Source of the DNA: Streptomyces sp. PCS3-D2
GTDB lineage: Bacteria; Actinomycetota; Actinomycetes; Streptomycetales; Streptomycetaceae
DNA: 64,000 nt
Direction of reading: 5' to 3'
Assembly (NCBI RefSeq): GCF_000612545.2
Contig: NZ_CP097800.1
Coordinates: forward strand, 4,526,501-4,590,500
In this document: in pieces, positions 21,577 through 40,267 of the stretch
Position numbering within the stretch: the first letter of the stretch is position 1
Layout of the letters: every line of letters starts with the position of its first letter
Program-made: the position numbers and the translations under genes
Notes under the pieces: generated by a model
What the model was told of the DNA's origin: nothing
Database searches by the model: none
What the model saw: the letters and a program-made list of their open reading frames with translations, nothing else

Positions 21577-22860
21577 ATGACCAGTACGGGGGAAGTGGAA
21601 GGCCGTGCCGCGCCGCCTTTGTGGTGGGCGCGGCGCCGGGATGCCGTGATGGACGTGGCGTTGGCCGGCGTGTCCGCGGCGGAGTGCGCGTGGGAGGGGG
21701 TGTCCTTCGCCCACGACGCGGGGATCCCGGTGGCCGTCGGCGTGCTGTTCGGCGCCGTGGTGGGGTCCACGCTGGTGCTGCGGCGGCGCTGGCCGATCGC
21801 GGTGGTGCTGGTGGGGATCGCCGTGGCGCCGGCCGAGATGGGGTTCCTGCTCTCCTTGGCGGGCCTGTACTCGCTCGCCTCGTCGGAGGTGCCCCGGCGG
21901 GTCACGGCCGCGCTCGCCTCGATGTCGATGATCGCGACCTTCGTCGTGATGTACCTGAAGACGCGGGGGGACGTGGAGGTCGGTCCAGCGTTCGTGGTCG
22001 CGCTGTCCGGGTTCGTCGCGGTGACGCTGACCGTGCCGCCGGTGCTGCTCGGGCTCTACGTCGGGGCCCGGCGCCGGTTGATGGAGAGCCTGCAGGAGCG
22101 GGCCGACTCGCTGGAACGGGAGCTTTCCCTGCTGGCGGACCGGGCCGAGGAGCGGGCCGAGTGGGCGCGCACCGAGGAGCGGACCCGGATCGCGCGGGAG
22201 ATGCACGACGTGGTCGCGCACCGGGTATCGCTGATGGTCGTGCATGCGGCCGCGCTGGAGGCGGTGGCGCTCAAGGATCCCGCGCGGGCGGCGAAGAACG
22301 CGGCGCTGGTGGGGGACATGGGGCGGCAGGCGCTGACGGAGCTGCGGGAGATGCTCGGCGTGCTGCGGGCGCCGCCGAAGGCGGCCGTGGCGGCCACCGC
22401 CGCGCCGGTGGGTCCGGTGGCGCCGGTGGCGCCGGTGGTGCCGGTGGCGCTCGTGGGCGGCGCGGACGAGGGGCCTTCGCTGGAGGAGATCGAGGCGTTG
22501 GTCGGCCAGTCGCGGGCGGCCGGGATGGCCGTCGAGATGGTCGTGCAGGGCGAGGGGGCGGCGTACGCGGCGGAGGTGGAGCAGACGGCGTACCGGGTGG
22601 TGCAGGAGGCGCTCACCAACTGCCACAAGCACGCTCCGGGGGCGCGGGTCGTCGTGCGGCTGGCGCACCGGCAGGGCGAGGTGGCGATGCAGGTGGAGAA
22701 CGGGCCGTGCGAGGGGCAGGCCGACGCGGTGGGGCTGCCGAGCGGCGGGAACGGGCTGGTCGGCATGCGGGAACGGGTGCTCGGGCTGGGCGGCGTGTTC
22801 GTGTCCGGTCCGACGGACGCGGGTGGCTTCCGCGTCTCGGCAGTCCTCCCGCTCCGCTAG
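21577..22860 (+). CDS. NarL/DesK-type sensor histidine kinase, orphan
   Basis: The 427-residue protein has about five N-terminal hydrophobic segments (to about residue 165), a coiled linker, a HisKA_3 dimerization box with the phospho-acceptor His at about residue 210 (AREMHDVVAHR), an Ala/Val/Pro-rich insertion, and an HATPase domain (VVQEALTNCHKHAPG, then GGNGLVGMRERV). The ATP lid region is shortened, with ENGPCEG where DNGxG is typical. No response regulator is adjacent; the LuxR-type regulators at 6.6 and 9 kb are possible but unproven partners. The signal is unknown. Confidence 0.85.
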   Translation: MTSTGEVEGRAAPPLWWARRRDAVMDVALAGVSAAECAWEGVSFAHDAGIPVAVGVLFGAVVGSTLVLRRRWPIAVVLVGIAVAPAEMGFLLSLAGLYSLASSEVPRRVTAALASMSMIATFVVMYLKTRGDVEVGPAFVVALSGFVAVTLTVPPVLLGLYVGARRRLMESLQERADSLERELSLLADRAEERAEWARTEERTRIAREMHDVVAHRVSLMVVHAAALEAVALKDPARAAKNAALVGDMGRQALTELREMLGVLRAPPKAAVAATAAPVGPVAPVAPVVPVALVGGADEGPSLEEIEALVGQSRAAGMAVEMVVQGEGAAYAAEVEQTAYRVVQEALTNCHKHAPGARVVVRLAHRQGEVAMQVENGPCEGQADAVGLPSGGNGLVGMRERVLGLGGVFVSGPTDAGGFRVSAVLPLR

Positions 22861-22935: not shown

Positions 22936-23448
22936 TTACGGCGCCGTGGTGAGGCGTGTCGGCTGGAGGCCGGTCAGGAGCAGGGTCAGGGCCTCGTCGA
23001 GCGTGGAGCCGAGGTACCAGTCGCCGGTGTGGTCGATGCCGTAGACGCGGCCTTCGCGGTCCAGGGCGAGGTGGGAACCCCCGTCGGCCTCGACGCCGAG
23101 GGGGCAGAGCTGGGTGGACAGGGCCCGCCCCAGGTCGGCGAAGGTGCGTGCGAGGTGCAGCCCGGTGAGGGGGTCGATCCGTACCGGGGTCGGGGCGATC
23201 TGCCGGCCGGGTCCGCCGGCGGTGACGGTGAGGCCGCCGAACTCCGCCCAGGCCTCGACGGCTGCGGGGAAGACCGTGTGCCGGTGGCCGGCGGGGGTGG
23301 TGTGGTCGCGGAGGGCGTCGGCCCAGTACTCGGCCTGCTTGGCGTCCCAGCGGCCCGGCTCCCAGCCGGCGGTCCGCAGCGCGGAGTCCACCGCGGCCGG
23401 GAAGCGGGTGGTCGAGGAGCGGTCGTAGGAAGCGGAGGTGGTGGTCAT
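22936..23448 (-). CDS. SUKH-3-type immunity-domain protein
   Basis: The 170-residue protein matches the SUKH-3 pattern: RFPAAVDSALRTAGWEPGRW, an Ala/Trp helix, FPAAVEAWAEFGGLTV, IDPLTG, LCPLGVEADGG, LDREGRVYGID and DEALTLLLTG. SUKH proteins are the immunity partners of nucleic-acid-targeting toxins in polymorphic toxin systems. It starts 2 bases after the stop of the YwqJ-like deaminase gene, so translation is coupled and it is the natural inhibitor of that deaminase by position. No signal peptide or membrane helix is seen; it should be cytoplasmic. Confidence 0.85.
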   Translation of the reverse strand: MTTTSASYDRSSTTRFPAAVDSALRTAGWEPGRWDAKQAEYWADALRDHTTPAGHRHTVFPAAVEAWAEFGGLTVTAGGPGRQIAPTPVRIDPLTGLHLARTFADLGRALSTQLCPLGVEADGGSHLALDREGRVYGIDHTGDWYLGSTLDEALTLLLTGLQPTRLTTAP

Positions 23449-23450
23449 GG

Positions 23451-24011
23451 CTACTCGGCTGGGGTGAGGTCGACGGGACGTACGCCGAAGTGGGCGAGGA
23501 GGGCGTCGCAGGAGCGGCAGGGGGGTGCGTAGCTGCCGTGGAGGGGGTCGCCGTCCTCGCGGATGCGCCGGGCGGTGATCTTCGCGTGCTTGAGGGAGCG
23601 GCGGGCTTCGCCGGGGGAGAGGGGCTTGCGGGAGGCGCGCCGGGAGCGGGCGGCCTCGACGGCGGACAGGTGGCGGGAGAGCAGTATCGCTTCGGGGCAC
23701 CGTCCGGTGAAACGTTCGCGCTGGCCGCTGGTCAGGGTGTCCAGGAAATCCTGGACGAGGGGGTGGAGCGCGGGTGCCTGGTCGCCCTTGCCGGCGGTGC
23801 CGGTGAGGGTCTCGCCGCGCACGGACAGCGCGGCGGCGACGGTGGGCAGGATGCCGTCCCGGCGGAAGCGCAGGACGGGTGGGGTGGGCCGGCCGTCGCT
23901 GCTGCTCCAGCGCAGGCGGGGGTCGCCGGTGTGGCCGCCCGGTTCGGCGGGCGAGCCGGCCGCGTCGGCGGTGCCGTCGCCCGGTTCCGTACGTGTTGCC
24001 GTGTTCTGCAT
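23451..24011 (-). CDS. YwqJ-like nucleic-acid deaminase domain protein
   Basis: The 186-residue protein has an 80-residue polar N-terminal region and then a deaminase-fold domain. Zinc and catalytic residues are visible as C105-P-E107 (the Cys-containing CxE variant of the HxE motif used in YwqJ-type deaminases) and P164-C165-R-S-C168 (PCxxC). Family members are toxin tips predicted to deaminate bases in nucleic acids or nucleotides. There is no secretion signal, RHS, PAAR or LXG domain, so it is a stand-alone deaminase rather than a typical exported toxin. ATG 24011 with GGGAGGG upstream is preferred to an open frame extending to 24095. A SUKH-3 gene follows directly. Confidence 0.75.
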   Translation of the reverse strand: MQNTATRTEPGDGTADAAGSPAEPGGHTGDPRLRWSSSDGRPTPPVLRFRRDGILPTVAAALSVRGETLTGTAGKGDQAPALHPLVQDFLDTLTSGQRERFTGRCPEAILLSRHLSAVEAARSRRASRKPLSPGEARRSLKHAKITARRIREDGDPLHGSYAPPCRSCDALLAHFGVRPVDLTPAE

Positions 24012-24115
24012 GGTCGCGCTTTCCCTCCCGTGGCGGCGGTGGTGACCGCTTTCGCGCACGCCCCCGTGCTGCGGGGACAGCCTGCCAAATGTCATCTGTC
24101 ATACGGAAGCGGGGT

Positions 24116-24135
24116 CGAATTTTCGTATCAATTCG
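24116..24135. promoter_or_regulatory. Inverted repeat in the divergent cassette promoter region
   Basis: CGAATT (24116-24121) and AATTCG (24130-24135) form a perfect inverted repeat with an 8-base spacer. It lies in an unusually A/T-rich patch between the deaminase gene and the divergent WHH-SUKH gene. It could be an operator controlling both directions; no regulator gene is adjacent. Confidence 0.45.
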
Positions 24136-24241
24136 GATGTTCCTGACCGTCGGGCTGGTGTGCGGGTCGCGGGCGGGGGAGCCTCTTGCCCCAGCGCATA
24201 GGCTGTGGTGAACCAGCCAGATCCAGCAGGGGGCTACCGCC

Positions 24242-25237
24242 ATGACGACAGGTCGGCTCGGGCAGCAGGCCGCGCCACCCAACGCCGCTTACTCGGGGCA
24301 GGTCGTGCATTTCCCGGACCCGGTCCGGGCAGCTCGGCATCCCCACGGAGTGCGGATGGACGGCGCCGGGCATCCGGACTTCTCCGCCTACGCGCGTGCG
24401 GCGGTGGAGATCGCCGAACCGCCCGAGGGTTTCGGCGTGGACGAGTTGAGGCTGACGGACTACGTGTCCGCGAACGCGGCGATGAAGGCCGCGGGGCACG
24501 CGTTGTGGGACACGGTCGGTCCGGTGGCGACCCCGCACGGCTGGACCTGGCACCACGTTGCGGGTTCGCGGCGCATGGAGCTGGTCCCGGTCGAGGTGAA
24601 GGCGCTGCTGCGGCATCACGCGGGTCTGGCGACGGCTCCGGTGGACCACGAGAAGCGCGGGACGCGGCCGTTGCAGGAGGTGCGTCCGGTGCACATGGGG
24701 CTCCCGAAGTCCGTGGTGTCGGTGTCCGAGAGCCAGGTGCAGGGTGTCGAGGAGGATCTCGGCTACCGGCTGCCGGAGGCCTACCGCTCGTTCCTGAAGG
24801 CGGCGGGCGGCTGCGCGCCGGTGGGCGCCGGCCTGGACGTGGACCTGGGCCTGTTGGTGGACCAGCCGTTCTTCACGGTGCGTGAGGAGGCGGCGGTCAA
24901 CGACCTCGTCTACGTCAACAAGTGCCTGCGCGACCACCTGACGAAGGACTACCTGTGCGTGGGCTTCGCGCAAGGCGGGCTGCTCGCGCTGAAGGTGCGG
25001 GGCGAGGGCACCGGATCGGTGTGGTTCTCCCCGTACGACGACGCCCGCGACCGGGACGGATGGTCGGTCCAGGAGCGTGTGGAGCGGCTGTTGCTGCCGT
25101 GCGGCGTTGATTTCGACGCCTTTCTGGAGCGGTTGGCGGGCAACCCGCCGGAACTGGAGACGGTGGCCGGTCTGATGGTGGACGGCGGATTCGCACGTTC
25201 GGTTCCGGTGGCGCGTGCCGGTTCGGATGAAGGGTGA
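24242..25237 (+). CDS. HNH/WHH-type nuclease domain fused to a SUKH-1 (SMI1/KNR4) domain
   Basis: The 331-residue protein has two parts. Residues about 1-140 resemble the WHH group of HNH/endonuclease-VII toxins: HPDFSAYA, DYVSANAAM, TWHH (W103, H104, H105), MELVPVEV and RHHAG (H125-H126). The His usual after the MELVP-type segment is Lys (K120), so the nuclease may be weakened or inactive. Residues about 165-310 form a SUKH-1 domain (LGYRLPEAYRSFLKAAGG). Toxin-type and immunity-type domains thus share one chain. No export signal is seen. ATG 24242 is chosen, with GGGGGC upstream. The next gene begins 7 bases after the stop. Confidence 0.7.
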   Translation: MTTGRLGQQAAPPNAAYSGQVVHFPDPVRAARHPHGVRMDGAGHPDFSAYARAAVEIAEPPEGFGVDELRLTDYVSANAAMKAAGHALWDTVGPVATPHGWTWHHVAGSRRMELVPVEVKALLRHHAGLATAPVDHEKRGTRPLQEVRPVHMGLPKSVVSVSESQVQGVEEDLGYRLPEAYRSFLKAAGGCAPVGAGLDVDLGLLVDQPFFTVREEAAVNDLVYVNKCLRDHLTKDYLCVGFAQGGLLALKVRGEGTGSVWFSPYDDARDRDGWSVQERVERLLLPCGVDFDAFLERLAGNPPELETVAGLMVDGGFARSVPVARAGSDEG

Positions 25238-25244
25238 CGGCGCG

Positions 25245-27677
25245 GTGGTGACGTTTGCGCAGGCGCAGGAGCGCGCCGAGGAGTGGATCAACGGAGACGT
25301 GCCCGCGTACCAGCACCGGGAGGTGCGGGTACGGGAGTTCGGGCTCGGGTTCGTGGTGTGGGCGGAGGACCGCGCGGCGGGTCCGGTGTCGGGGGGCGGC
25401 CGGCAGCGGCTGGTCATCGCCCGGGACAGCGGTGAGGTGACGTTGTGGCCGGGACTGCCGGTGGGCGAGGTGATCCGCCGGTACGAGGAGGAGTACGGGA
25501 CCGTGGCGTCGGCCGCGGCTTCGGAGGCTTCGGTTCCGCCGCCGCGGATCGACTCGGAGCAGACGTCGTTCATGCTGAGTCCGCCGGAGTGGTTGCAGGA
25601 GGCGGCGGACCGGGCGGGGATCGCGCCCCGGCCGGCCGCGGCGTCGGTGCCGTCGTCCGGCTCCTCCGCGGCTCCGGCGGCGCCCGCCGCCACCGATGCG
25701 GGTGCGGGGGCGGGGCCGGGTGCTGGTCCGGTGTCCGACGCCGATGCGGCATCCGCGCCGGAAGAGTCCGGTTCGGCGGCGGCTCCGGGCGCCGCGGACG
25801 CGGTGCCGTTGCGGCGCGGGGGCGAGATCCCGTACGAGCCGACGGCCAGTGACGGCGTACCGGCGACGGCGGCGGCCGTGCCGACCGGGGCCACGCCGTG
25901 GGCGGGTACCGATGTGAACTCCGGCTCGGACGAGGCATCCGTGCCGCTGCCGGCGACCGTGTTCGCGCCACCGCTGTCCGGGTCGGACCTGGAAGACGCG
26001 CCGCGGTCGTCCGGGGCCTCCGAGGCGAAGACGACCCTGATGCCGGGCGGCAGCCAGCTGCCGAGGACCGCCGTCGTGCCCGCGCTGGGGTCTTCGCCGC
26101 AGGAGATCGCGGACGCGCCGACGGACAAGGCCCCGGTCTCGCGGCCGGACGCGGAAGGGGACTCGGCCGCGTCCCGGCCTGCTGCGTCTTCCGGGCCTTC
26201 CGGTCCGCCGGCGCCTCCTGGTCCGCCGGGGGTTCCGGGGTCGTTGGGGCGTGGGTTGGATCATGCGGCGACGATGTTGGCGGGTCCTGCGGTGACGGGT
26301 CAGCCGCCGGCGCCTCCGGGTCCGCCGGGGGTTCCGGGTGCGGGTGGGTCGCAGTCTTCCGGGCCTTCTGGTCCGCCGGCGCCTCCTGGTCCGCCGGGGG
26401 TTCCGGGGTCGTTGGGGCGTGGGTTGGATCATGCGGCGACGATGTTGGCGGGTCCTGCGGTGACGGGTCAGCCGCCGGCGCCTCCGGGCCCGCCCGGCGT
26501 CCCCGGTGCGGGTGCGTCGCAGCCTCCCGGCCCGCCGGGAGCGCCCGGCGTCCCCGGCGGGCCCGGTGCACCGGGTGCACCCGGTGACGGAGCCCACCAC
26601 GCCGCGACGATGCTCGCGGGTCCCGGCGTACCGCAGCCCCCCGGTCCCCCCGGTCCGCCGCCCGGCGTGCCCGCGGGGCAGCCGCAGGCCCCGACGGGTG
26701 CGCCCACGGTCGGCCCCGGCTACCAGGCGGTCCTGCGCTACCGTGCGCCCGACGGTTCCGAGCAGCAGCTCATCCGCCGCTCGGCGCCCGGCACCCCGCA
26801 CCCGGAGTGGCAGATCCTCTACGAGCTGCGCGCGATGAACGTGCCGCCGCAGCAGGTCCTGGAGCTGCACACCGAGCTGGAGTCCTGTGAGCTGCCCGGC
26901 GGGTACTGCGCCCGCATGATCCGGGAGACGTGGCCGCAGGTGCGGATCACCAGCGTGGCTCCGTACGGGCAGGACCACGCGGGCCGGCAGCAGGGCATGC
27001 GGCACCTGCTCACCCACCAGGGCGAACTGCACCAGGTCGCCGACGGTCCGGCGCGCCCCGCGCCGGTGCGTGCGCCGCTGCCGCAGGTTCCGCTGCAGCC
27101 GGCGATTCCCTTGGAGGCGATCGGGCAGGAGCTGGCGGCGGCGTTCGGTCCGCAGGGCGTGTTCCGTTTCGACCAGCGGGCGGTGTCCCGCCAGGGTGTG
27201 CCGGAGATCGTGGCGCAGACGCTGATGTGGGCGGGACTGCCGGTCGATTTCGGGCCGTTCTTCTGGGCGCAGGCGGTGCCGGGGCAGCCGGTGCCGACGC
27301 TGGCCGAGCTGGCGGCGCAGCGGCAGGTGCAGCCGGCGTCGGACGCGGGCTCGTACCTGGTCATCGGCAGTGATTTCGGCAAGGCGCTGTGCGTGCAGTA
27401 CGGGACCGCGCACATCGTGGCGGTGCCGGTGGAGGGCGGTCCGGGCGGTGCTCCGGTGCCGCCGCAGTTCGTGAACTCCAGCCTGCCGCAGTTCGTGCGT
27501 TCGATGGCGATGCTGGGTCACATGTGGCGGTTGCGGCAGCATCTGACGCCGGAACAGGCGGGCCGCTGGACCGTCGATTTCCAGGCGAATCTGGCGGGGC
27601 TCGACAGCGCGGCGCTGGCGTCGCCGGAGAGCTGGTGGTCAGTGCTGCTGGAACAGATGTGGGACGGGTTGTTGTGA
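25245..27677 (+). CDS. Multidomain protein: YrhB-like N-domain, Pro-rich linker, deaminase domain, SUKH-4 domain
   Basis: The 810-residue protein opens with a small alpha/beta domain (about 1-90) resembling YrhB/Imm35 immunity proteins. A 390-residue low-complexity Ala/Pro/Gly linker follows, with near-identical 56-residue repeats. A deaminase-fold domain (about 485-600) has H519-P-E521 and C548-x6-C555 in a TELESC...YCARMI context, like XOO_2897-type toxin deaminases. The C-terminal SUKH-4 domain (about 620-810) has the signature FVNSSLPQFVRSMAML. No signal peptide or membrane helix is evident. GTG 25245 (or 25248) is chosen because AAGGGTGA lies about 8 bases upstream; ATG 25227 has no such site. 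It is probably cotranscribed with the preceding gene. Confidence 0.7.
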   Translation: MVTFAQAQERAEEWINGDVPAYQHREVRVREFGLGFVVWAEDRAAGPVSGGGRQRLVIARDSGEVTLWPGLPVGEVIRRYEEEYGTVASAAASEASVPPPRIDSEQTSFMLSPPEWLQEAADRAGIAPRPAAASVPSSGSSAAPAAPAATDAGAGAGPGAGPVSDADAASAPEESGSAAAPGAADAVPLRRGGEIPYEPTASDGVPATAAAVPTGATPWAGTDVNSGSDEASVPLPATVFAPPLSGSDLEDAPRSSGASEAKTTLMPGGSQLPRTAVVPALGSSPQEIADAPTDKAPVSRPDAEGDSAASRPAASSGPSGPPAPPGPPGVPGSLGRGLDHAATMLAGPAVTGQPPAPPGPPGVPGAGGSQSSGPSGPPAPPGPPGVPGSLGRGLDHAATMLAGPAVTGQPPAPPGPPGVPGAGASQPPGPPGAPGVPGGPGAPGAPGDGAHHAATMLAGPGVPQPPGPPGPPPGVPAGQPQAPTGAPTVGPGYQAVLRYRAPDGSEQQLIRRSAPGTPHPEWQILYELRAMNVPPQQVLELHTELESCELPGGYCARMIRETWPQVRITSVAPYGQDHAGRQQGMRHLLTHQGELHQVADGPARPAPVRAPLPQVPLQPAIPLEAIGQELAAAFGPQGVFRFDQRAVSRQGVPEIVAQTLMWAGLPVDFGPFFWAQAVPGQPVPTLAELAAQRQVQPASDAGSYLVIGSDFGKALCVQYGTAHIVAVPVEGGPGGAPVPPQFVNSSLPQFVRSMAMLGHMWRLRQHLTPEQAGRWTVDFQANLAGLDSAALASPESWWSVLLEQMWDGLL
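26187..26522 (+). repeat. Two-copy 168-bp in-frame tandem repeat inside the linker
   Basis: Unit 1 (26187-26354) and unit 2 (26355-26522) are almost identical at the DNA level, with differences concentrated near the end of unit 2. Each encodes a collagen-like Pro/Gly stretch and the motif LDHAATMLAGP. A third, degenerate HAATMLAGP copy follows at about 26599-26625 with C-ending codons. Confidence 0.9.
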
Positions 27678-27819: not shown

Positions 27820-28692
27820 ATGAGTGCACCCATGGCGACCGTGCGAGGTCGTGGCTACCGCATGGAAGAGGTCGACCGGTATCTCGCCCGGCTCTCCGGG
27901 AGCCGTGACGAGGCCTGGGAGCGGGTGGCGCGGCTGACGGTCCTGGCCAAGCAGATGGAGGCGGAGGCGGCGCGGCTGCGTGAGCTGGTGGCCGGGCTCG
28001 CCCCGCAGACGTACGACGAGCTGGGCGAACGCGCCCGACGGATCCTGCTGCTGGCGGAGGAGGAGGCCGAGGCCGTACGGGCGGAGGCGCGGGCGGACGC
28101 GTCCGCGACGCTGGAGGCGGCCGGGGCGCGTGCCGAGCGGGTGGCGGAACTGGCGCGGGGCGATGCGGAGGCGGTGCGCGGGCAGACCGAGGTCCGGGCG
28201 CGACAGGGGCTGTTGCGGGCGGAGCGGGAGGCGGACGACCTGCGGGCCGGGGCACGCCAGGACGCGGCCGCGTGGCGGGCGGACGCGGCGGCGGTGCTGG
28301 CGCAGGTGCGGCGGCGGGCGGAGGCGGCGCGGGTGGAGCGCGAGCGGGAGCAGGGGGAGCGCTGGGAGGCGGCGGACCGCGCATTGGTGGTGCGGGGGGC
28401 GGAACTGGAGTCGCGCCACGCGGAGTCGGAGCGGCATGCGGAGTCCGGGCTGGCGGAGGCGCGGCGGGCGCACGCGCAGGCGCAGGAGGCCGCGCGGCAC
28501 GGTCAGGAGGACGCGGAGGCGCGGGCGGCGGAGCTGGTGGCACAGGCGCGGGTGGCGCAGGAACGGATCGCGCGGGAGACGGAGCGGGTGCTGCGGGAGC
28601 ATGCGGAGGCGCAGGAGGAGATGCGGGCGCACATGGCGCATGTGCGGGCCAGTCTGTCGGCGCTGACGGGGCGGGCCCCGGCGGAGGGCTGA
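27820..28692 (+). CDS. DivIVA-like coiled-coil protein
   Basis: The 290-residue protein starts with a short DivIVA-type N-terminus (VRGRGYRMEEVDRYLARL at about 7-24). The remainder is one long Ala/Glu/Arg heptad-rich coiled coil with no membrane segment. Such proteins in Streptomyces (often named cellulose-binding or Wag31-like) are cytoskeletal or polarity-related scaffolds. ATG 27820 is preceded by GAGAGAGG; ATG 27832 is an alternative. It follows the toxin/immunity-type genes on the same strand after a 142-base gap containing a weak hairpin, so cotranscription is possible but not shown. Confidence 0.75.
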   Translation: MSAPMATVRGRGYRMEEVDRYLARLSGSRDEAWERVARLTVLAKQMEAEAARLRELVAGLAPQTYDELGERARRILLLAEEEAEAVRAEARADASATLEAAGARAERVAELARGDAEAVRGQTEVRARQGLLRAEREADDLRAGARQDAAAWRADAAAVLAQVRRRAEAARVEREREQGERWEAADRALVVRGAELESRHAESERHAESGLAEARRAHAQAQEAARHGQEDAEARAAELVAQARVAQERIARETERVLREHAEAQEEMRAHMAHVRASLSALTGRAPAEG

Positions 28693-36490: not shown

Positions 36491-36733
36491 GGACTCGTGC
36501 TCCTCGGCCGTTCGGCGTGAACTCCTGCGGGAAGGACGCGGCGAGCTCAGGCGGTGGGTACGTGGACATCGTAGAGCGGGAGCGACGCCTCCAGGATGAC
36601 GAGGAGCCGCGCCCGCGCCGTGACCCGAATCCCTCGCGCGTCGGTGCGGGCGCCGTCGTAGGGTGGGAACCCCCGGCCCGTACGACGTGTCGGGTCCTTC
36701 GCGTTGCCCCCTCACCGGACGGAAAGCCGCCTC

Positions 36734-40267
<3,534 letters not shown>

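Follow-up and report, generated by a model that had tools for sequence, protein, structure and literature searches.

A 64,000-nucleotide stretch of DNA from Streptomyces sp. PCS3-D2 (contig NZ_CP097800.1, positions 4,526,501 to 4,590,500 of a 7.6 Mb genome; referred to below as 'the window') carries, at positions 22936-27677, a cassette of four genes that combine toxin-type deaminase and nuclease domains with immunity-type domains of the SUKH families. The open reading frames (ORFs) read in the window form two divergent pairs, termed B-A (minus strand) and C-D (plus strand), in the orientation described by an original prediction that had been made from the DNA letters alone. The host is, by its sequence, a Streptomyces close to S. 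amritsarensis; strain MTCC 11845 of that species has a D whose C-terminal part matches that of the window at 100% identity. The locus is a core rather than an accessory element of the Streptomycetaceae, and occupies mostly one conserved chromosomal site.

Genes, domains and motifs of the cassette

The features of the cassette (coordinates within the window, strand, description and basis) are as follows.

22936-23448, minus strand: gene A, a SUKH-3 immunity-type protein of 170 amino acids, second in the B-A pair (Pfam match at residues 16-160)
23451-24011, minus strand: gene B, a YwqJ-type deaminase of 186 amino acids with a variable N-terminal stretch (Pfam; motif rows)
23484-23861, minus strand: deaminase domain of B, residues 51-176 (Pfam)
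24012-24241, plus strand: divergent intergenic region between B and C (aligned with 31 relatives)
24195-24206, plus strand: conserved 12-base block CGCATAGGCTGT (alignment of the window and 31 relatives)
24242-25237, plus strand: gene C, a WHH nuclease fused to SUKH-1, 331 amino acids (Pfam; aligned members; model)
24527-24637, plus strand: WHH nuclease motif region of C, residues 96-132 (Pfam; motif rows)
24722-25048, plus strand: SUKH-1 domain of C, residues 161-269
25227-27677, plus strand: gene D, 816 amino acids counted from the ATG at 25227 (Pfam; alignment)
25248-25529, plus strand: conserved N-terminal domain of D (alignment)
25530-26711, plus strand: low-complexity linker of D, rich in P, G and A (alignment)
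25560-25598, plus strand: short motif at the start of the D linker, QTSFMLSPPEWLQ (41 full-length D proteins of relatives)
26712-27014, plus strand: XOO_2897-type deaminase domain of D, residues 496-596 (Pfam)
27123-27656, plus strand: SUKH-4 domain of D, residues 633-810 (Pfam; model)

B lies upstream of A, with a gap of 2 bases between them. The start of D is uncertain (GTG at 25215, ATG at 25227 or GTG at 25248), and its conserved part begins at 25248.

The six toxin- and SUKH-type labels originally assigned by eye were all recovered by profile search above the respective Pfam cut-offs. A matches SUKH-3 at 183.9 bits (cut-off 23); B matches YwqJ-deaminase (PF14431) at 96.9 bits (cut-off 25.9); C matches WHH (PF14414, HNH/EndoVII) at 48.1 bits (cut-off 25.1), Colicin-DNase at 32.6 bits (cut-off 25) and SMI1_KNR4/SUKH-1 at 49.3 bits (cut-off 25.4); and D matches XOO_2897-deam (PF14440) at 125.9 bits (cut-off 27) and SUKH-4 at 165.1 bits (cut-off 25.5). 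The predicted number of four immunity-type domains was borne out in part: three, each of a SUKH family, are secure, and the fourth is in doubt because the YrhB/Imm35 label of the D N-terminus is unconfirmed. The Imm35/YrhB profile (PF15567) gave no Pfam match at E≤1 in D and none at E≤5 with the D N-terminal domain alone, and it matched one of 22 aligned D N-terminal domains (the window's included), at E 0.0011. No NCBIfam match was obtained for the four proteins at E≤1, and a search of PHROGs returned a single weak match, between a family of unknown function and the SUKH part of C.

The catalytic motifs that had been noted in B (C105-P-E107 ... P-C165-R-S-C168) and D (H-P-E ... C-x6-C) are present in the window and near-invariant in aligned relatives, so that active sites are not disrupted in most orthologues. 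Alignments were built, in addition to the window's own row, from 37 of the 60 matches listed for B (38 rows), from 46 of 55 candidates for C (47 rows) and from all 34 candidates for D (35 rows; the partial locus L112 was excluded; handles beginning with L and G denote loci and genomes). Residues C105, E107, C165 and C168 of B are kept in 38 of 38 rows. E38 of D is present in all 35 rows, and H36, C65 and C72 in 34 of them, the exception being a paralogue (L090). Every one of the 47 aligned C members matches both WHH and SMI1_KNR4 and retains W103, H105, H125 and H126, and H104 is found in 42; the catalytic residues are intact in all 42 Streptomycetaceae rows, and the five rows without H104 all belong to family f3.

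The order of toxin gene and then immunity gene that is a trait of polymorphic toxin systems is seen in B-A, and the observation that toxin- and immunity-type domains share chains holds for C and D (Pfam). Such shared chains are not unprecedented: one paper mentions that SUKH is at times found fused to toxins and to immunity domains (PMC3482391). A type II toxin-antitoxin system was considered as an alternative description and set aside, given that toxin-type B precedes A and that C and D are multidomain proteins, not small single-domain ones.

Two sets of short motifs accompany these domains. The P-, G- and A-rich linker of D is anywhere between 277 and 740 residues long in 41 relatives; at its start the motif TSF[LM]L[ST]PP is found in 40 of the 41 full-length D proteins of relatives, and an HxAxT[MV]L-type repeat is found in 32 of the 41. 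In the window this repeat takes the form HAATMLAGP (26262-26288, 26430-26456 and 26598-26624), and by eye the stretch 26262-26456 looks like a duplication within the linker, with HAATMLAGP units 168 bases apart. Because these motifs are kept despite the variable length of the linker, they suggest docking of D to a partner. In the B/C intergenic region, each of the 12 consecutive bases of CGCATAGGCTGT is kept in at least 90% of 31 aligned relatives; the block includes a -10-like TAGGCT and ends 35 bases before the start codon of C, and we infer for it a role as a promoter.

Predicted structures were obtained for C (pLDDT 90.5, pTM 0.88) and for residues 490-816 of D (pLDDT 92.5, pTM 0.89), the pTM values of these models being compatible with a fixed packing of the domains in C and in the D half. 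When compared with known structures by Foldseek, the C model listed both chains of the RhsP_WHH-RhsPI complex 8bd1 (chain A at E 3.8e-3; chain B at E 0.18, probability 0.47), and the deaminase half of D listed APOBEC1 as its best match (E 4e-3), together with APOBEC3H and DddA (5e-2), none of them at E≤0.001; DddA is not among the 50 VIA-align matches listed for D. Sequence searches against solved structures returned nothing significant for B, D or the D N-terminal domain, and weak matches of C to the RhsP WHH chain (E 0.0013) and to YobK (0.62).

The reported lack of a signal peptide or delivery domain was upheld: crude hydropathy gave no signal peptide or membrane segment in A-D (highest 19-residue Kyte-Doolittle mean 1.32), Pfam gave no delivery domain in them, and WXG100-family profiles gave no match in them at E≤1, although the same library found WXG100 in toxins of two relatives (L086 and L088, below). 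Strings of the YxxxD/E and WxG type do occur in D; they lie outside any WXG100 match and were treated as chance.

Distribution, gene order and constraint

In an even sample of 200 Streptomycetaceae genomes, the window genome included, B has matches in 199 (17 of 17 genera; 194 at E≤1e-38), D in 197 (16 of 17 genera; 191 at E≤1e-100) and C in 195 (16 of 17 genera; 187 at E≤1e-100), where weaker matches are counted as matches and not as confirmed orthologues. Among 296 genomes of the class, the C-terminal architecture of D at E≤1e-10 is found in 28 same-genus genomes (the window's among them) and in 4 of the 268 others, all four of which belong to family f19. The same domains are found at the locus across species and genera, and at that scope the variation of toxin domains that is a trait of polymorphic toxin systems was not seen.

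The gene order extends beyond the cassette to its neighbours, which in the window include prs, glmU and mfd as well as the following.

21577-22860, plus strand: HisKA_3 sensor kinase, frequent beside A (Pfam)
27820-28692, plus strand: DivIVA-like coiled-coil protein (27.1 bits, just under the Pfam cut-off of 28)
36704-40264, in the window: mfd

Of 36 same-genus relatives, 34 have a match to A, 33 to B, 33 to C and 34 to the D C-terminal part (this last count includes G001, where the match is a paralogue, and G008, where it is partial). In 25 of the 36 a single stretch holds the whole order glmU-sensor kinase-A-B|C-D-coiled coil; nine more are interrupted by contig ends or a run of N, with the visible part in agreement; and two are rearranged: in G012 A-B lies near the end of the main contig with C-D left behind, and in G008 the block has kept its place but is inverted, a contig gap taking in C and the first part of D. 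True gene loss in these relatives was considered and rejected, since every absence adjoins a contig end (G001, G014, G017, G030 and G033) or a run of N (in D of G010). In other genera the order from kinase to coiled-coil gene is complete in 15 of 20 loci (19 genomes). Among the remainder, L130 and L135 are interrupted by contig ends, the kinase of L133 (g20) lies beyond the coiled-coil gene, at the opposite end of the block, and the two pairs of G084 (L142 and L143) are about 28 kb apart. In these genera glmU is farther away or not seen, and the sensor kinase is still beside A in most loci.

The neighbourhood is thus conserved in order in most loci. No PADLOC model matches any of the four proteins at E≤1. 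Among 50,697 phage records none matches the D C-terminal part (the search there was of D only), and the plasmid matches of B, C and D, the three proteins searched among plasmids, are weak or partial. These phage and plasmid searches lend no support to spread of the locus by phage or plasmid, and together with the PADLOC result and the near-universal presence of the genes they make an accessory defence island unlikely. Ten neighbours were scanned with Pfam; no response regulator family and no recognized secretion gene were found among them, three of the ten having no Pfam match at E≤1e-5. Control by bldA was also rejected, as there is no TTA codon in A-D or in the two neighbours (kinase and coiled-coil gene).

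Rates of change were compared within the genus for 60 random pairs per gene (dS being rough in these GC-rich genes). Mean pairwise identity is 0.85 for C, 0.85 for the C-terminal part of D and 0.83 for GlmU, and stands at 0.70 for A, 0.69 for B, 0.72 for the kinase and 0.53 for the coiled-coil protein; the gene for the last is beside D in most loci and yet evolves fast. Median dN/dS is 0.18 for C and 0.20 for both the C-terminal part of D and glmU. The distances between pairs of A-D sequences follow the corresponding glmU distances (r 0.64-0.75), a pattern that, at the level of distances, mostly shared descent would predict. Taken as a whole, the sequences indicate that the locus is under selection as enzymes.

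Origin of the cassette and its possible use

Relatives found outside the locus point to where its parts came from. In G037 (L086) a row of genes comprises a WXG100 gene, a 794-residue WXG100_2-YwqJ toxin, a SUKH-3 gene, an orphan YwqJ gene and a further SUKH-3 gene, and in G004 (L088) a WXG100_2-YwqJ toxin is likewise followed by SUKH-3, orphan YwqJ and SUKH-3 genes; judged by these kin, B is a toxin domain without its delivery part. L087 holds a YwqJ deaminase joined to a domain that resembles the N-terminus of D (31% identity). On the Burkholderia pyrrocinia plasmid p2327, the C-terminus of a hemagglutinin-repeat protein (which we take to be CdiA-like) aligns with residues 12-130 of C (28.7%, E 2e-6), and a separate SMI1/KNR4 gene follows. 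Residues 43-298 align with a pair of HNH and SMI1 genes of Sagittula sp. P11 (25.7%, E 6e-7) that is located between VgrG and PAAR genes, and on a Paraburkholderia plasmid an SMI1/KNR4 gene comes after an HNH gene that matches the nuclease half of C. Judged by their gene content, these relatives are ordinary delivered toxins with separate SUKH genes, and C looks like a toxin and an immunity protein joined into one chain. C is also probably the oldest part of the locus: in family f3 it is kept in 13 of 14 genomes, with A and B not found save for one weak match to A, and its homologues there are stand-alone genes that adjoin mfd in 11 of 11 loci (L075-L085), mfd being present in the window as well.

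Paralogues were also encountered. One paralogue of D (L090:8693-10180) has the N-terminal domain and SUKH-4 with a degraded deaminase (the His changed to Pro and both Cys lost); another (L091:8197-10494) has an intact deaminase-SUKH-4 half with a different N-terminus, which has no Pfam match and by eye looks like a helix-turn-helix or coiled coil. In g18, paralogues of C, B and A (L126, L127 and L128) form one co-directional run separate from the locus, a hint that the two pairs may belong together; the B motif pattern is not found in L126-L128, and the C-x-E of L126 reads C-x-D by eye.

The explanation that we hold to be somewhat more probable than all others combined is that this core, largely vertically inherited locus consists of polymorphic-toxin cassettes domesticated for an intracellular job; of the three suggestions originally offered, a regulatory reuse of toxin parts fits best. 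According to this explanation the enzymes would stay cytoplasmic as latent, restrained effectors: A would bind and restrain B in trans, and in C and D the restraint would act in cis, through SUKH-1 on the WHH nuclease and through SUKH-4 on the deaminase. In the RhsP pair, as a review summarizes it (PMC12826047), the immunity protein RhsPI covers the site at which the WHH nuclease binds DNA, and a similar arrangement in cis would most simply account for C and for the SUKH-4 part of D. Through its N-terminal domain and its flexible, motif-bearing linker, D may be tethered to a partner or sense a releasing signal. The enzymes would probably serve to control nucleotides or nucleic acids of the cell itself in response to an internal cue (stress, development or hyphal death), and not to kill rivals. 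A more specific version, in which three latent enzymes with cis and trans antidotes make up one regulated life-cycle 'switch' and the linker motifs of D dock a controlling partner, is possible though rather doubtful.

Several findings weigh against domestication of the whole locus as an enzymatic unit. The C homologues of f3 read W-[ATV]-H in 11 of 11 loci, the first His of the WHH motif being replaced and the rest of the motif and SUKH being kept, which suggests that part of the role of C may not be catalytic; paralogues with a damaged deaminase motif exist (L090 and L126). A and B evolve faster than the other two genes (dN/dS 0.43 and 0.49), so that a role in conflict would also fit the A-B pair. 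C and D are missing from 3 of 3 genomes of g15, likely by loss since one of the three is a single contig, and in all four g18 genomes the D match is no more than a distant one (E 1e-13 to 1e-16), with a distant C in three of the four. The locus is thus dispensable, and it is separable: A-B lies apart from C-D in G012 and G084, and the kinase is displaced in L133.

Other explanations have to be weighed against domestication. That the locus is a fixed intracellular antiviral or abortive-infection system, in which a phage displaces SUKH and the enzymes then destroy phage or host nucleic acids or nucleotides, would suit putative latent cytoplasmic effectors with intact active sites, and many abortive systems do restrain a toxic enzyme in cis or in trans. 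This was also the anti-phage-like function originally suggested, and it fared poorly: there is no PADLOC match; the C-terminal part of D is unmatched in the phage records and the plasmid matches of B, C and D are weak or partial; the genes are near-universal and mostly at one site, with C and the C-terminal part of D as conserved as glmU; and prs, glmU and mfd are among the neighbours. We regard it as unlikely. Somewhat more unlikely still is an immunity or decoy locus, whose SUKH proteins would protect against the toxins of relatives and whose enzyme domains would serve as bait or hold SUKH in readiness. In its favour are the presence of three SUKH domains among the four genes, the WXG100_2-YwqJ toxins with SUKH-3 genes in relatives (L086 and L088) and the loss of the first catalytic His in f3. 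Mere bait would not, however, be expected to keep its catalytic residues, as all 38 B rows and 34 of the 35 D rows do, and immunity genes normally diversify along with toxins, a pattern that C and D, with a constraint equal to that of glmU, do not follow. Polyimmunity proteins, which would suit an immunity locus, are on record (PMC3482391).

An improbable alternative is that B, C and D are exported effectors, delivered by a type VII secretion system or a contractile injection particle encoded elsewhere, with SUKH protecting the producer. Near relatives of B and A do lie in a WXG100 locus, and the D linker is P/G-rich like that of the L086 toxin; against this, the four proteins have no signal peptide, WXG100 or other delivery domain, no secretion gene was recognized among the ten neighbours scanned (three of them without a Pfam match), a SUKH domain fused to an enzyme would be carried along into the target cell and could inhibit the enzyme there, and the domains are constant between species and genera. 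A similarly low probability attaches to non-toxic small-molecule enzymes, that is, deaminases acting on free nucleotides, nucleosides or a metabolite, with SUKH as a regulatory part. One study reports that YwqJ of Bacillus subtilis blocks growth without visible effect on the chromosome or rRNA (PMC8321402), which makes substrates of this kind conceivable beside the nucleic acids of the editing function originally suggested. The best Foldseek matches of D, in contrast, are the nucleic-acid deaminases APOBEC1 and APOBEC3H, with DddA further down (none at E≤0.001), and C carries a nuclease domain.

Counterparts in the literature and comparison with known systems

The sensor kinase at 21577-22860 is, we infer, the counterpart of the S. 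coelicolor orphan kinase SCO3119, and SCO3115-SCO3118 would then be the counterpart of A-D, since SCO3114 and SCO3119 lie on either side. Publications bearing on these flanking genes list SCO3119 as an orphan kinase (PMC9739842), name it as a possible target of AtrA repression (PMC13170358), and describe SCO3114 as a rod-domain protein with diffuse localization (PMC2680258). The literature searched contains no work on SCO3115-SCO3118 and no description of the locus as a family-wide core element, an earlier mention in papers on SUKH or toxin deaminases being possible.

Each domain of the cassette is known, and fusions of SUKH to toxins have been noted before; what appears to be new, against the literature searched, is a near-universal, slowly evolving locus in the Streptomycetaceae. 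Its distribution is real, well supported and surprising, and the mechanism proposed above for it is plausible. The locus is an unexplained part of core Streptomyces biology, in a well-studied family. If its enzymes are active and 'leashed', it would be a clear example of toxin deaminases and nucleases that bacteria have domesticated, a step of the sort from which eukaryotic editing deaminases have been proposed to arise; and if the switch is real, a bacterial family would have taken toxins once used between bacteria into its core cell biology.

Comparison with characterized systems brings out what sets the cassette apart. Yeast Smi1/Knr4 is not known to carry a nuclease or a deaminase domain. 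The deaminase half of D resembles the fold of DddA and the APOBEC proteins (PDB 6u08, 6x91 and 5w45) in the Foldseek comparison, at about 15% identity, and is instead fused to SUKH-4 and a long linker. B shares its deaminase family with YwqJ-YwqK of Bacillus subtilis and the WXG100_2-YwqJ toxins of L086 and L088, and has a SUKH-3 gene after it in the order of toxin and then immunity gene, but is the toxin domain alone, with no LXG or WXG domain, and is near-universal rather than variable. In B. pyrrocinia p2327 and Sagittula sp. P11, toxin and immunity genes are separate and accompanied by delivery parts, whereas C is one undelivered polypeptide. Finally, in comparison with RhsP_WHH-RhsPI of the Vibrio type VI secretion system (T6SS2; PDB 8bd1), C is a single chain, with no Rhs shell, T6SS or autoproteolysis, and is nearly fixed in a bacterial family.

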